DNA of 64,000 nt from an uncultured Hyphomonadaceae bacterium (lineage in GTDB: Bacteria > Pseudomonadota > Alphaproteobacteria > Caulobacterales > Maricaulaceae). Shown piece after piece: positions 15,770-41,549 of the stretch. Made by a program: the position numbers and the translations under genes. How positions within the stretch are numbered: the first letter of the stretch is position 1; each line of letters opens with the position of its first letter. A model generated the notes under the pieces. The model saw only the letters and a list, made by a program, of their open reading frames with translations. It did no database searches and was not told the DNA's origin. The stretch spans positions 1 to 64,000 of the forward strand of contig CAJXPX010000007.1 in assembly GCA_913058335.1 (NCBI GenBank), in the 5' to 3' direction.

Positions 15770-15797
15770 TTGACAAACAACAGAACAACACTAGAAC
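15770..15797 (+). promoter_or_regulatory. lexA promoter with overlapping LexA box
   Basis: TTGACA (15770-15775), 16 bases, TAGAAC (15792-15797) form the promoter. GAAC (15783-15786), 7 bases, GAAC (15794-15797) is a perfect alphaproteobacterial LexA site (GTTC-N7-GTTC on the other strand) covering the spacer and the -10 box. LexA bound here would block its own transcription, the usual autoregulatory loop. The predicted leader is about 30 bases, with GAGGTGA before the ATG. Confidence 0.85.
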
Positions 15798-15834: not shown

Positions 15835-16503
15835 ATGCTGACGCAAAAGCAAAAAGATCTTTTAATGTTGATTGATGCGCGGGTGAAAGCCGTTGGCGTC
15901 CCGCCCTCTTATGACGAAATGAAAGACTCTCTGGGTCTGGCGAGTAAGTCCGGGATTCACCGCCTGATTTCCGCCCTTGAAGAGCGCGGCTTTATCCGCC
16001 GCCTGCCGAATAAGGCGCGGGCGCTGGAAGTGTTGAAACTCCCTGAGGACATGCAGAACAAGGTCGTCTCCTTTGCCGAAAAGAAGGCAGAGAAAAAGGC
16101 GGAGCGCTATTCCGCCAATGACGGCGTCTCTATTCCCTTTGTCGGCAAGATTGCGGCGGGCCTACCCATTGCCGCGATTGAAGATAGTTATAACACCATG
16201 ATCGTGCCGCCGCATTTTGCCGGAAACGGAGATCATTTCGCGCTCGAAGTCGAAGGCGAGTCGATGAAGGATGCAGGCATTCTCGACGGCGATATTGTGA
16301 TCGTCAAAAAATCCAATACGGCGCGCAACAATCAAATCGTTGTGGCCCTTGTTGACCAAGATGAGGCCACCTTAAAGCGCCTTTACAAATCCGGCCAACA
16401 AGTTGAATTGATTGCAGAAAACCCTGATTTTGAAACGAAGGTTTTCGGCCCTGACCGCGTTGAAGTTCAAGGTATCCTCGTCGGATTATTGCGCGAATAT
16501 TAG
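15835..16503 (+). CDS. lexA: LexA repressor
   Basis: A 222-residue SOS repressor: winged helix-turn-helix at about 1-65 (PPSYDEMKDSLGLASKSGIH) and an S24 self-cleaving peptidase domain. The cleavage site is Ala108-Gly109 (KIAAGLPI), the nucleophile Ser143 (EGESMKDAG) and the general base Lys181 (EATLKRL). RecA on single-stranded DNA triggers self-cleavage and releases SOS genes. An unusual lysine/glutamate-rich linker (AEKKAEKKAE) lies at about 81-90. The gene has its own LexA-controlled promoter and a strong terminator downstream. Confidence 0.98.
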   Translation: MLTQKQKDLLMLIDARVKAVGVPPSYDEMKDSLGLASKSGIHRLISALEERGFIRRLPNKARALEVLKLPEDMQNKVVSFAEKKAEKKAERYSANDGVSIPFVGKIAAGLPIAAIEDSYNTMIVPPHFAGNGDHFALEVEGESMKDAGILDGDIVIVKKSNTARNNQIVVALVDQDEATLKRLYKSGQQVELIAENPDFETKVFGPDRVEVQGILVGLLREY

Positions 16504-37026: not shown

Positions 37027-40000
37027 TTAAGCCGCAATTTCGCGTATGATTTCTACCGCCGGATTAACGCGGATAGCCTTTTGAATTTTCAGATCGATTC
37101 CCCAGTTTCCGGCAAGCTTCCAACTGGCCTCGCGGGTTTTATCCAAAGGCGCTGAAATCATAATGTAACCGGAGTTTTGATAAGGCGCATTTTTGAGCTG
37201 ATGAAGAAGCGCCTCCAAAGAATCCAATGTCTCGGCGGTGGCATTTCTAAGACGGATATTAATTCCGACAATCTTGGCCTCGGGCGGCTTGGCGTCCAAA
37301 GCTGTCATCGCCTCGGCAAAGAGCCGCACATCCCCGTCCCCGCCCTCGGCTTTGACCTTGACCTGAACCAAATTTCCAGGACTGAGATCATCGCGATTGG
37401 TCAGCAAAATCTTTTCCGTGAACAAGACCTCATACTCTCCGGTCGGGTCCGATAGAGCGACAAAGGCAAATTTCTTCCCGCGTTTGGACAGCCGCTCTTG
37501 CTTACGCAGAACGACCCCCGCAAGGTTAAGCTTACATTCTTTTCCGCTACGGGCGTAACGTTCCCCGATATCAACAGCGCTGGTACACTTATCAAGACTG
37601 CCTTTTTCCAGATGTTCATCCAGTGGATGTCCGCCCAAATAAAACCCGACCGCGCCCAATTCATGGTTTAACGTTTCGATTGATCCCCAAGGTGGAGCGT
37701 ATTCCAGATCGGGATCTTCCATTGGGACGACATCCCCGAACAGGCTGACTTGATTGCTGGAGCGTTCGCGCGCGGCCAGAGTGCCTATATCCTGCAAAAT
37801 CGAAGAGGAGGCCAAAACACTGGCGCGGTTTAGGTCAAGACAATCAAATGCGCCCGCCCGCGCCAGATTTTCAATCGCGCGTTTATTGACGAGCCGCATA
37901 TCAACCCGGTGCGCAAAGTCATACAAATCTTTGAAAGGGCCGCCCTCTTTCCGAACGCTGACGACATGGCGCATTGCGTCCAGCCCCACATTTTTAAGGG
38001 CTCCCAAAGCGTATAGAACTTTCCCGTCTTTTACGTCAAAATCAGCTTCAGAGCGGTTCACACAGGGCGGTTCAATTTCAAGCCCCATGCGTTTCCCTTC
38101 CTGATAAAACTGCGCCAGTTTTTCGACATTGGCGAGATCAAGAGACATAATGGCGGCTATAAATTCGGCCGGATAAAGCGCTTTCAGATAGGCCGTCTGG
38201 AAAGAGATCATGGCATATGCCGCAGCGTGGGATTTGTTAAAACCATACCCCGCAAATTCATTGACGAGCTCAAAAATCTCGCCTGCTAAACGCCCATCCA
38301 CATCGCGCTCAACCGCCCCGTCAATAAACTTTGATTTTTGTCGGTCCATTTCGGCCTGGTCTTTTTTACCCATGGCGCGGCGGAGCAAATCCGCATCTCC
38401 GAGCGAAAATCCGGACAGGGTTTTGGCGATCTCCATCACCTGTTCCTGATAAATAATAATCCCGTAAGTTTCCTTAAGAATGGATTCCAGCTTTGGATGA
38501 GGAAAGGTAATTTCCTGACGCTCAAATTTGCGATCAATATAGTCGGGGATGTTTCTCATCGGCCCGGGGCGATAGAGCGAGATCAAGGCGGTCAGTTCTT
38601 CGATTGAGCCCGGCGCCATTTTCCGGAGCACGTCGCGCATCCCCGAACTTTCAAGCTGGAACACACCGGCCGACAGGCCTTCGGATAAAGGCGCGTAAGC
38701 CTCTGGCGTGTTGGTGCTGACTTTTGACCAATCGACCGTGATGTCGCGTTTGACGAGATATTTCAGACATCGATCAATGACCGTCAATGTCTTTAAGCCG
38801 AGAAAGTCGAACTTCACCATTCCGGCTTTTTCGGCCCATTTCATTGTAAATTGTGTGGCGGGGATGTCTGAACGCGGATCCCGATAAAGCGGGACGAGCT
38901 GTTGCAGCGGACGATCGCCAATAACCACGCCCGCCGCATGGGTCGACGCGTTTCGATACAAGCCTTCGAGTTGCAGGGCCGTATCAAGAAGGGCTTTGAC
39001 AGAAGGCTCCGCCTTGCGGGCGTCCTGCAATGCGGGTTCCATGTTAATTGCCTGCGCCAAAGAGACAGGATTAGCCGGGTTGGACGGGACAAGTTTAGCG
39101 AGTCGGTCCACCTGCCCAAGCGGCATTTGCATTACACGTCCAACATCGCGGACGACAGCGCGTGCTTGCAACGTTCCGAAAGTGATAATCTGGGCGACTT
39201 GTCCGTCGCCATATTTCCGGCGGACGTAATCAATGACTTCGCCGCGGCGTTCCTGACAAAAGTCGATATCGAAATCGGGCATGGAGACACGTTCCGGATT
39301 AAGGAAACGTTCAAAGAGCAGGCCATATCGTAGAGGGTCCAAATCCGTAATGGTCAATGCCCAAGCGACCACAGACCCCGCACCGGATCCCCGACCTGGG
39401 CCAACAGGAATGCCCTGTTCTTTGGCCCATTTGATAAAATCCGCAACGATTAAAAAATAGCCCGGAAAACCCATATTTTTAATAATGCCGAGTTCAAAAT
39501 CGAGCCGTTCAAAATAGACGTCTTCTGTTTCGGCCATATCAACGACTTCAAGTCGTTTGCGGAGACCGTCTTTGGCCTGTTGCGCCAAAATGTCCGCCTC
39601 TGATAATGACCCATCGCCAAAATTGGGAAGGATAGGTTTGCGTTTTTCCGACTTCACGGAACAGCGTCGCGCAATGTTCAAAGTGTTCTCTATCGCCTCT
39701 GGCAGATCGGCAAAAAGGTCCAGCATTTGCTCCGGTGATTTCAAATAGTGATGGCCCGTCAGTTTACGTCTGTTTTTCTCCAGGACATAAGAGCCTTCTG
39801 ACATGGCGAGCAAAACATCATGCGCCTCGTGCATTTCCGGGTCGAGGTAATAGGGCTCATTGGTCGCGACCAGTGGAAGGCCTTTATCATAAGCAAAATC
39901 AAGAAGTATGGGTTCGGCTTTTTCCTCTTCGGGTGTGTTATGCCGTTGCAGCTCGACATACAGGCAGTCAGGAAAAAGCGATATCAGGCGGTCAAGCCAG

Positions 40001-40485
40001 CTTTCCGCCTCTTCCAAACGGTCTTGAACAATAAGCTTGTTTAAAACACCGTCAGGGCCGCCCGTTAACGCGATCACGCCTTCTGTCCGGCCCGTTAGAA
40101 AATCTGCTTTCACATGCGCCAAATCCGTCGGCTCGACATCCAGAAATGCCGAGGAAGACAGCGCCATGAGATTCTCATAGCCCTTCTCATTTTTCGCAAA
40201 TAGCACAAGAGTGCCGTCCGGATCTTTTCGGATTTGCCCCGGCTGCAAAGGTATGCCGATATCCATCGACAAAGTTAGCCCGATAATAGGCTGCACTCCA
40301 AAGCCAGCCATTGTGTCAGAAAATTCAAGAGCCCCGCAGAGATTATTGGTGTCAGTCAGACCAACAGCCGGGAAATTCCAATCCGCGCACCGCGCGCCCA
40401 GTGGCTTCATTTTCAATGCGCCCTCTAACATTGAGTAAGGCGAGCGCGTCCGAAGAGGTACAAAATCCAAGCGACGAATAGCCAT
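37027..40485 (-). CDS. dnaE: DNA polymerase III alpha subunit (DnaE1)
   Basis: A 1152-residue replicative polymerase. A PHP domain (1-about 270) is followed by the polymerase core with GPGRGSGAGSVVAWALTITDLDP, the catalytic MPDFDIDFCQERR, YRPGPMRNIPDYIDRK and GYGFNKSHAAAYA, then a tandem HhH, an OB domain (about 1000-1070) and a C-terminal region. PHP metal residues are lost: P10 and R14 replace the first two His, T46 the third. Length and position favour DnaE1 over the mutagenic DnaE2. A small ORF with an SOS promoter lies 58 bases upstream, so part of dnaE transcription may be damage-induced. Confidence 0.96.
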   Translation of the reverse strand: MAIRRLDFVPLRTRSPYSMLEGALKMKPLGARCADWNFPAVGLTDTNNLCGALEFSDTMAGFGVQPIIGLTLSMDIGIPLQPGQIRKDPDGTLVLFAKNEKGYENLMALSSSAFLDVEPTDLAHVKADFLTGRTEGVIALTGGPDGVLNKLIVQDRLEEAESWLDRLISLFPDCLYVELQRHNTPEEEKAEPILLDFAYDKGLPLVATNEPYYLDPEMHEAHDVLLAMSEGSYVLEKNRRKLTGHHYLKSPEQMLDLFADLPEAIENTLNIARRCSVKSEKRKPILPNFGDGSLSEADILAQQAKDGLRKRLEVVDMAETEDVYFERLDFELGIIKNMGFPGYFLIVADFIKWAKEQGIPVGPGRGSGAGSVVAWALTITDLDPLRYGLLFERFLNPERVSMPDFDIDFCQERRGEVIDYVRRKYGDGQVAQIITFGTLQARAVVRDVGRVMQMPLGQVDRLAKLVPSNPANPVSLAQAINMEPALQDARKAEPSVKALLDTALQLEGLYRNASTHAAGVVIGDRPLQQLVPLYRDPRSDIPATQFTMKWAEKAGMVKFDFLGLKTLTVIDRCLKYLVKRDITVDWSKVSTNTPEAYAPLSEGLSAGVFQLESSGMRDVLRKMAPGSIEELTALISLYRPGPMRNIPDYIDRKFERQEITFPHPKLESILKETYGIIIYQEQVMEIAKTLSGFSLGDADLLRRAMGKKDQAEMDRQKSKFIDGAVERDVDGRLAGEIFELVNEFAGYGFNKSHAAAYAMISFQTAYLKALYPAEFIAAIMSLDLANVEKLAQFYQEGKRMGLEIEPPCVNRSEADFDVKDGKVLYALGALKNVGLDAMRHVVSVRKEGGPFKDLYDFAHRVDMRLVNKRAIENLARAGAFDCLDLNRASVLASSSILQDIGTLAARERSSNQVSLFGDVVPMEDPDLEYAPPWGSIETLNHELGAVGFYLGGHPLDEHLEKGSLDKCTSAVDIGERYARSGKECKLNLAGVVLRKQERLSKRGKKFAFVALSDPTGEYEVLFTEKILLTNRDDLSPGNLVQVKVKAEGGDGDVRLFAEAMTALDAKPPEAKIVGINIRLRNATAETLDSLEALLHQLKNAPYQNSGYIMISAPLDKTREASWKLAGNWGIDLKIQKAIRVNPAVEIIREIAA

Positions 40486-40543
40486 GCCCTCTCCTTTCTA
40501 TCAGTCCAAACTTCTGTTGGACGTCTCTTATATCAATCGGGAG

Positions 40544-40639
40544 CTAGCCTCCCAAGACCATCATCCACATGGTCATCACACCGACAAACCCTGCCAGAAC
40601 GGCGCCTGAAACAATATCCATTGCGAGTTGTTTTGCCAT
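40544..40639 (-). CDS. 31-residue single-helix membrane peptide under LexA control
   Basis: An ORF of 31 codons plus a stop. ATG 40639 is preceded by TGGGGATAAAG (ribosome site) and ends at TAG 40544. The peptide begins MAKQLAMDIVSG, then a hydrophobic segment (about residues 9-29) rich in Gly, Val and Met (six Met in all, MTMWMM at 22-27) and ends GG. One charged Lys before and one Asp at the start of the helix suggest N-in insertion in the inner membrane. A promoter with a perfect LexA box sits 26-64 bases upstream. dnaE starts 58 bases downstream. Size, topology and control recall the Caulobacter SOS division inhibitor SidA (29 residues); no sequence comparison was possible. Confidence 0.7.
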   Translation of the reverse strand: MAKQLAMDIVSGAVLAGFVGVMTMWMMVLGG

Positions 40640-40664
40640 CTTTATCCCCAATAAAACCATTGAT

Positions 40665-40703
40665 GTTCTATTTTTGTTCTACACCCTTATCTTAAAGAGT
40701 CAA
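40665..40703 (-). promoter_or_regulatory. SOS promoter with perfect LexA box upstream of the small ORF and dnaE
   Basis: On the minus strand TTGACT (40703-40698), 16 bases, TAGAAC (40681-40676) make a core promoter. GAAC (40679-40676), 7 bases, GAAC (40668-40665) is a perfect LexA box overlapping the -10 region and the start point. The lexA gene in this window has the same TTGAC-N16-TAGAAC layout. The predicted leader is about 30 bases. Confidence 0.8.
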
Positions 40704-40733: not shown

Positions 40734-40742
40734 TGTGGATAA
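40734..40742 (-). promoter_or_regulatory. Consensus DnaA box upstream of the SOS promoter
   Basis: TTATCCACA on the minus strand is an exact match to the strongest E. coli-type DnaA box, 31 bases upstream of the -35 element. A single 9-mer can occur by chance, but placement upstream of dnaE makes DnaA control of this replication gene plausible. Confidence 0.4.
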
Positions 40743-40844: not shown

Positions 40845-41549
40845 TTAGGCTCTGGATGGAGCCTTTAAGGGCACCACAAGGCCATCGCGCACCGTAAAGA
40901 CGCGATCCATATATTGGGTCAATTCCATATTATGAGTAGCAACAAGGGCGGCGACCCCTTCCCTGCGAGTCAAATCAAATAAGCTCTGGAACACCGAAGA
41001 TGATGTGGCGGGATCAAGGTTTCCGGTTGGTTCGTCAGCCAGAAGAATTTTGGGCTTATTCGCGAGCGCGCGGGCAATTGCAACGCGCTGTTGCTCCCCG
41101 CCTGACATTTGCGACGGCTTGTGATGCATACGCGCTTCTAGGCCTAAGAGGGTTAAGAGCCGCCGTGCCTCGGCGATGGCAACACGTTCGGCCTTTCCAG
41201 CTATCATTTGCGGGATGACAACGTTGTCTTCTGCCGAAAACTCCTTTTGCAAATGATGGAATTGATAGACAACGCCAATTGTTTCGCGGCGTATGGCCGT
41301 GCGTTTATCATCAGAAAGCTTCAAACACTCCCGCCCGCCAATATAGACTTCTCCGGCATTAGGTTTTTCAAGCAATCCAGCGGCATGAAGCAATGTGGAT
41401 TTACCTGATCCGGACGGCCCAATCAGTCCCACCATCTCACCCGGGAAAATATCAATATCAGCGCCGGCCAAAACATTCAGCAGGGACAGGCCAGACTGGT
41501 AAGAACGGTGCAAATTCCGCACAGACAGTATGGGGCGGGTTTGGCTCAT
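40845..41549 (-). CDS. lolD: Lipoprotein-releasing ABC transporter ATPase LolD
   Basis: A 234-residue ABC ATPase energising release of outer-membrane lipoproteins from the inner membrane to LolA. Walker A GPSGSGKS at 44-51, Q-loop VVYQFHHLQKEFSA, signature MSGGEQQRVAIARAL, Walker B ILLADEPTGNLDP. It lies 9 bases after the permease gene, which fixes its partner. Confidence 0.95.
   Translation of the reverse strand: MSQTRPILSVRNLHRSYQSGLSLLNVLAGADIDIFPGEMVGLIGPSGSGKSTLLHAAGLLEKPNAGEVYIGGRECLKLSDDKRTAIRRETIGVVYQFHHLQKEFSAEDNVVIPQMIAGKAERVAIAEARRLLTLLGLEARMHHKPSQMSGGEQQRVAIARALANKPKILLADEPTGNLDPATSSSVFQSLFDLTRREGVAALVATHNMELTQYMDRVFTVRDGLVVPLKAPSRA

Follow-up and report, generated by a model that had tools for sequence, protein, structure and literature searches.

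A Gene for a Probable SidA-like Membrane Peptide behind a LexA-Type Box Directly Upstream of dnaE in a Hyphomonadaceae Bacterium and Its Relatives

A small gene of the minus strand, 40544..40639 (stop codon included; MAKQLAMDIVSGAVLAGFVGVMTMWMMVLGG), encodes a SidA-like peptide of 31 residues with a predicted membrane helix, directly upstream of the replicative polymerase gene dnaE. It lies in a 64,000-nucleotide stretch of DNA from an uncultured Hyphomonadaceae bacterium, hereafter called the window, and was recognized by its conservation, its codon pattern, and an AlphaFold2 helix model. Our preferred reading, with a probability of roughly 0.75 and resting in part on analogy, is that this genuine gene specifies a small inner-membrane peptide, strongly diverged from SidA, that is repressed by LexA, transcribed with dnaE, and inhibits the FtsW/FtsI/FtsN complex. 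SidA itself is already known; the window peptide and its relatives are best read, from their sequences, as a new and broad branch of SidA-like peptides.

1. The Peptide Gene and Its Surroundings

The reading frame, the ribosome site, the promoter hexamers, and the LexA box of the original prediction were all found in place. The ribosome site GGGGA occupies 40645..40649 (minus strand), and a GGGGATAA-type element precedes the peptide start in several relatives. Further upstream is a LexA-type box, GAACAAAAATAGAAC (40665..40679, minus strand), recognized as a GAAC-N7-GAAC repeat conserved in relatives, and a promoter-like arrangement at 40676..40703 (minus strand), in which TTGACT (40703-40698) and TAGAAC (40681-40676) are separated by 16 nucleotides. 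The -10-like TAGAAC overlaps the first half-site of the box; a strict sigma-70 scan returned no promoter for the peptide gene. An in-frame ATG at 40660 is an alternative start that would give 38 residues. The 31-residue reading is favored because the ribosome site fits it; in G003, the closest relative, an ATG is absent from the equivalent position.

Downstream, 58 nt after the peptide stop, lies dnaE, encoding the DNA polymerase III alpha subunit (37027..40485, minus strand; NF004226, 1377 bits). An inverted repeat with a 6-bp stem (40504-40522), just upstream of the dnaE ribosome site, is terminator-like on the plus strand only. The upstream neighbor, outside the peptide-dnaE unit, is a lolD-like ATPase gene (40845..41549, minus strand), whose best match, TIGR02211 (E 3.1e-72), falls below the curated cut-off.

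AlphaFold2, run on the single sequence with no alignment, models the peptide as one helix spanning residues 2-30 (mean pLDDT 91.7). Charge is absent after residue 9, the hydrophobic moment is 0.05, and the best 19-residue hydropathy is 1.87 (residues 9-27). The lack of charge after residue 9 and the small moment are what a helix spanning the membrane, and not lying on it, would be expected to show. Searched against Pfam and NCBIfam, the window peptide matched no family at E up to 10. Sporadic Pfam matches among the 30 peptides described in Section 3 (DAGK_prokar in three, best E 0.034; UL45 in one) were taken as chance.

2. The LexA-Type Box

Taken alone, the GAAC-N7-GAAC motif is no commoner than chance, either in the window (two observed against 1.73 expected from shuffles) or in the whole genome (72 against 126 for a reversed control pattern). 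The box was therefore rejected as stand-alone evidence, and its significance comes from conservation. A perfect repeat is present in 30 of 30 peptide-matched loci (window included), 33-86 nt before the peptide match; an A precedes the first half-site in 25 and follows the second in all 30, and TTGAC or TTTAC is found 9-42 nt before the box in 29, mostly at 24-25 nt. The window box is thus a direct repeat of the right spacing, conserved in relatives, as would be expected of a member of a LexA regulon. The C. crescentus LexA consensus is given as GTTCN7GTTC (PMC9578287).

The peptide promoter had been described as built like that of lexA, which lies at 15835..16503 (plus strand; TIGR00498, E 8.2e-56) with a box of its own, a motif match, at 15783-15797. 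The likeness holds for the parts, since TTGACA-N16-TAGAAC precedes lexA, but not for their alignment: the box is offset by 11 bp, its second half-site falling in TAGAAC at lexA and its first at the peptide gene.

Elsewhere in the window's genome, the same 15-mer recurs identically before an ImuA-like gene (C5:121249-121263, L281) that sits ~2.4 kb before a second DnaE-type gene. Boxes similar to GAACAAAAATAGAAC also precede dinB, ssb, and an RmuC-like gene, with the ImuA and RmuC assignments resting on matches below curated cut-offs. Three further sites were observed in this genome: an identical box at C7:148407-148421 (L282) and one of the same kind at C14:4750-4764 (L285), neither with an obvious long gene directly downstream on the strand of the reading direction; and two overlapping boxes, GAACCTCACTAGAACCTCACTAGAAC, at C2:220404-220429 (L287), before an ORF whose start is signal-peptide-like.

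3. Conservation within the Family

A peptide search of 100 related genomes, the window's own included, gave matches at E <= 1 in 41; the 30 best, all with E <= 1.9e-4 and made up of the window's own match and those of 29 relatives, were taken as loci. Each of the 30 is followed immediately, on the same strand, by the start of DnaE, and residues D8 and W25 are invariant. In the window's genome (G000), a profile of these 30 peptides has a single match, the window peptide. Having been chosen by means of the peptide, these loci owe their open frame in part to that choice, and a count anchored on dnaE is fairer. Sixty genomes of the draw belong to the window's family, and the DnaE N-terminus was found in 54. 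The original prediction stood to lose its footing if relatives carried stops or frameshifts; instead, the peptide lies upstream of dnaE in 53 of the 54, window included (30/30 first loci and 23/24 others), and frame, box, and place are kept in 30/30. In the 24 further genomes, the relatives have ~30 residues, some reading longer from upstream starts, and the box is perfect in 13, the other 11 each having two one-mismatch boxes. The sole exception, G019 (L078), has a perfect box before dnaE, and no peptide was found there. The gap between dnaE and lolD had been put forward as the setting in which to look for conservation. Its dnaE side held in 30/30 loci, but on the opposite side just 8/30 had LolD within the 1.5 kb flank, and it was rejected as a conserved neighbor.

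Codon comparison over a 27-codon core (435 pairs, mutually non-independent) gave 3040 synonymous against 1231 non-synonymous single-difference codons in the peptide frame; the shifted frames gave 777:3744 and 323:4299. By these sequence comparisons, purifying selection acts in the peptide frame only, and 40639-40544(-) holds a genuine gene.

4. SidA at the Same Place in Caulobacter

One genus of the order (g28, 75 genomes searched) was identified as Caulobacter by the C. crescentus MipZ of PDB 2xj4, which is 100 per cent identical in two genomes, G157 and G196; the window's organism thus shares an order with Caulobacter. dnaE was located in 20 chosen genomes of this genus, and a hydrophobic ORF precedes it in 20/20, with 29-30 residues by the SidA start and often more in the longest reading; the boxes are perfect in 16 and present with one mismatch only in four. 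The ORF before dnaE in G196 is SidA by NCBIfam NF033228 (E 2.2e-20, positions 1-29 of 29), and it is this ORF that the model matches in that genome. As identified by sequence, then, the Caulobacter peptide directly upstream of dnaE, behind LexA-type boxes, is SidA itself. The sidA gene is locus CC1927. In C. crescentus, dnaE is CC1926 (PMC1839093). SidA of C. crescentus is described as an SOS-induced inner-membrane protein of 29 residues that targets FtsW/FtsI/FtsN (PMC4211646), and LexA regulation of dnaE has been reported in the same organism (PMC3323433).

The curated cut-off of NF033228 is 35 bits. Of 398 genomes of the order, 42 exceeded it, all in the Caulobacteraceae-type family (f3), and among 14 control genomes there were matches in four, Caulobacter vibrioides included, one of them over the cut-off. 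In the window's family, the model had weak matches in nine genomes (E 0.008-0.08), none over the cut-off. The window peptide itself did not match it at E up to 10, nor did any other sequence of the window's genome at E up to 0.1.

5. Homology between the Window Peptide and SidA

The window peptide shares SidA's place, directly upstream of dnaE and behind a LexA box, and its size class, with 31 residues and one predicted helix compared with ~29 residues and a single membrane helix; it does not reach the 35 bits of the curated model. When the 398 genomes of the order were scanned with a profile built from the 30 close peptides, SidA was not recovered, and outside the family there were 14 weak matches (E 9e-4 to 0.09). 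The profile-profile and HMM comparisons drew on 26 non-identical peptides from the first loci (of the 30, one was a duplicate, and L019, L024, and L029 were omitted), 20 non-identical ones from the 23 others, 14 chosen f3-type peptides (without G061 and G065), three of family f5, and two of family f4. All were chosen by place and trimmed to the start that fits their family, which favors N-terminal alignment.

By hhalign, the 46 same-family peptides aligned with the 14 f3 peptides at a probability of 95.5 (E 1.3e-8), and 0/100 column-shuffled controls reached this score (32.5, best shuffle 18.0). The broader similarity to Caulobacteraceae-type peptides, above shuffles, is thus present for the 46-peptide set. 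Similar values were obtained for the 20 family peptides from other genera against f3 (94.4, 0/100) and for the same-family set against 17 peptides from elsewhere in the class (95.6, 0/100), with 84 (0/100) against f4 (n=2) and 7 (4/100) against f5 (n=3). The f3 set, in turn, aligned with the class peptides (90.9, 0/100) and hardly with f4 (2, 11/100), and gave nothing with f5 (84/100). The window's own subgroup of 26 is weak against f3 (probability 25, reached by 1/100 shuffles).

In the scoring of single sequences, only shuffled controls were used, because the natural decoys proved to contain members of the family encoded elsewhere. With an HMM built from the 46, 14/14 f3 peptides scored beyond the uppermost 1 per cent of shuffles of the same composition (the best shuffle, at 16.1 bits, outscored 13 of these 14), as did 4/9 f4/f5 and 3/17 class peptides. 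The subgroup HMM placed 3/14 f3 peptides above that level; the f3 HMM placed 0/26 of the subgroup and 7/20 of the other family peptides there. Direct comparison is weak, so the link to SidA rests on intermediates, place, and control, and on this footing the window peptide is likely homologous to SidA through intermediates. The original prediction had drawn on SidA as a comparison; the relationship turned out closer than claimed, with SidA itself at the same place before dnaE and the profiles connected through intermediates.

6. Distribution in the Order and the Class

In the other four families of the order, 24 of 40 available regions were examined by script and by eye. A peptide before dnaE was found in 7/7 regions of f3, 5/8 of f4, 5/5 of f5 (G071 weak), and 0/4 of f2. 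The layout of a LexA-type box, a hydrophobic peptide (~25-50 residues), and dnaE is therefore seen again in three further families, as well as in some other Alphaproteobacteria. The class sample comprised 81 of 173 other DnaE-positive genomes and is non-random: most of it comes from the best-ranked DnaE matches, and some small or fragmented genomes are omitted. A perfect sense box lies within 500-600 nt of dnaE in 16/81, against six for antisense boxes, one and two for the reversed pattern, and one each for spacers of six and eight. Past the box, a hydrophobic ORF of 24-50 residues starts after 15-75 nt in 16/16 of these genomes.

Over all 129 regions of order and class, such an ORF follows the box in 42 of the 46 that bear one, compared with 12/237 random sites in box-free regions and 0/4 antisense boxes. 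Among the four exceptions, G061 and G065 have a peptide by eye; G019 and G082 (L118) have none, as if, to judge from their sequences, the peptide had been lost while control of dnaE was kept.

Named genomes extend the picture. A DnaE query from Caulobacter-genus genomes gave at least 584 loci, of which the best 80 were examined, 50 of them alphaproteobacterial by title (two titled 'proteobacterium' only) and 30 others; several have less than 600 nt of upstream sequence. A perfect box occurs within 600 nt of dnaE in 11/50 alphaproteobacterial loci, compared with control counts, within 500 nt, of three for antisense, zero for reversed, and four for six-base spacers. Peptides were sought only behind perfect boxes, and a plausible one follows in ten: Phenylobacterium, Brevundimonas, Aquisalinus, Devosia, Roseibium, Methylobacterium, two Microvirga, and two MAGs. 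Devosia, Microvirga, Methylobacterium, and Roseibium are members of the Hyphomicrobiales. Commensalibacter (L201) has the box without a plausible peptide, as does one of the 30 other loci (L256), and no perfect box was found among the named loci titled Rhodobacteraceae, Sphingomonas, Mesorhizobium, or Acetobacteraceae bacterium. The one locus read by eye behind a one-mismatch box, that of 'Caulobacter sp. S45' (L182), has the peptide.

7. A DnaA-Box-like Site

Upstream of the LexA box by 63 nt (first base to first base) lies a DnaA-box-like site, TTATCCACA (40734..40742, minus strand), the sole perfect match in the window to TTATNCACA, the DnaA box consensus. The consensus is found in 4/30 loci (shuffled mean 0.38, maximum 3; reversed pattern 1). 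A relaxed form, NTATCCACA, occurs in 13/30 (shuffled mean 0.27, maximum 2; reversed 0), a count to be read with the pattern having been relaxed after the sequences were seen, the loci being related, and the shuffles being of single bases; in 12/15 same-genus loci, it lies 54-63 nt upstream of the LexA box. Because the site recurs, the peptide promoter may also respond to DnaA, and the arrangement hints at joint control of the peptide-dnaE unit by DnaA and LexA.

8. Proposed Function and Alternative Explanations

In the reading that we prefer, LexA would occupy the box and, because the box overlaps the -10 element, would block RNA polymerase. DNA damage would activate RecA and lead LexA to cleave itself, and one mRNA would then be made, with the peptide first and dnaE second. 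Co-transcription is likely, because no terminator was found on the minus strand between the two genes and because dnaE appears to start only 5-8 nt after the peptide stop in three loci (L027, L028, L030), which suggests translational coupling there. The uncharged helix (~9-30) would enter the inner membrane, leaving the short charged start in the cytoplasm, and the peptide, by analogy with SidA, would keep the septal wall-synthesis complex (FtsW, FtsI, FtsN) inactive. Division would thus wait during DNA repair while replication is supplied with polymerase. We infer damage induction, orientation, and target for the window peptide, and, by the same analogy, the arrest of division.

The short gaps in those three loci would also fit a leader peptide that is translated to control or couple the translation of dnaE and has no independent action, as would a gene order kept in the family almost without exception. 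We consider this unlikely: in some genomes as much as 230-313 nt separates the stop from the aligned dnaE start, in G019 a box precedes dnaE but no peptide was found, and what is conserved is amino acids (an uncharged helix, with D8 and W25 in 30/30), not the frame alone. The product of this locus in Caulobacter is, moreover, a division inhibitor (PMC4211646). The same G019, together with G082, lends something to a simpler explanation, that dnaE is the sole target of LexA here and the intervening frame is a meaningless chance ORF, to which the reported LexA regulation of C. crescentus dnaE (PMC3323433) also adds. A chance ORF is nevertheless highly improbable, given the synonymous bias in the peptide frame only, which argues strongly against it, the hydrophobic ORF behind 42/46 boxes as opposed to 12/237 random sites and 0/4 antisense boxes, and the presence of a studied protein, SidA, at the same place in Caulobacter.

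The remaining explanation accepts the gene and its control and differs in the target. In size, single helix, and SOS control, the window peptide resembles TisB and DinQ (for DinQ, PMC3567139) and could be an SOS-induced membrane toxin that lowers membrane energy and slows growth with no specificity for division. Its helix is, however, uniformly hydrophobic (moment 0.05) with no charged face, and it has SidA's place and a profile similarity to SidA via intermediates, which makes a toxin of this type quite improbable.

9. Implications

Peptides of this kind are easily overlooked, being ~30 residues long and fast to diverge while keeping a fixed place before dnaE. Owing to that fixed place, the SOS division checkpoint of many Alphaproteobacteria should be findable by position. 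Several families of the order have likely relatives, and so do Devosia, Microvirga, Methylobacterium, and Roseibium. Among the papers searched, at the level of titles and abstract openings, no description of SidA outside the Caulobacteraceae was recognized. The arrangement suggests why dnaE, a replicative polymerase gene, turns up in some LexA regulons, and it provides dozens of natural variants for mapping the inhibition of the FtsW complex by a minimal helix.

A bolder generalization, which we offer tentatively and at somewhat less than even odds, is that an operon of a 'division brake and replicative polymerase' (a SidA-like peptide and dnaE) under LexA is an ancient alphaproteobacterial module, that many LexA boxes assigned to "dnaE" drive an overlooked division inhibitor, and that the DnaA-box-like site is an element of this module in the window's genus. 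If so, a single transcript would tie together the status of replication initiation, DNA damage, polymerase supply, and the arrest of division.

10. Comparison with Known Systems

SidA of C. crescentus is the closest known counterpart, alike in its place before dnaE, type of LexA box, length class, and profile similarity through intermediates. In both, a short charged start leads into a single uncharged helix, a predicted one in the window peptide. The window sequence has nevertheless diverged beyond the reach of NF033228: the FVWM core of most of the 14 Caulobacteraceae-type peptides is absent, and a C-terminal W-x-M-[VI] is found instead.

TisB of E. coli has a helix with a charged face, acts on membrane energy, and is controlled by antisense RNA; the window helix has no such face. 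TisB and DinQ, both from E. coli, are SOS-controlled single-helix peptides (DinQ: PMC3567139), as the window peptide is predicted to be.

A second division inhibitor of C. crescentus, DidA, is also a small single-helix protein acting on FtsW/FtsI/FtsN (PMC4211646). It differs in having 71 residues and in being induced by DriD independently of SOS. YneA, SosA, ChiZ, and DivS of Gram-positive bacteria are likewise small damage-induced membrane proteins that block division, and are larger than SidA. They are described as unrelated genes (PMC4211646). FtsW is nonetheless the target of YneA and has been modeled, with low confidence, as that of SosA, ChiZ, and SidA in a 2026 paper, whose models set SidA against TM7 of FtsW (PMC13396833).
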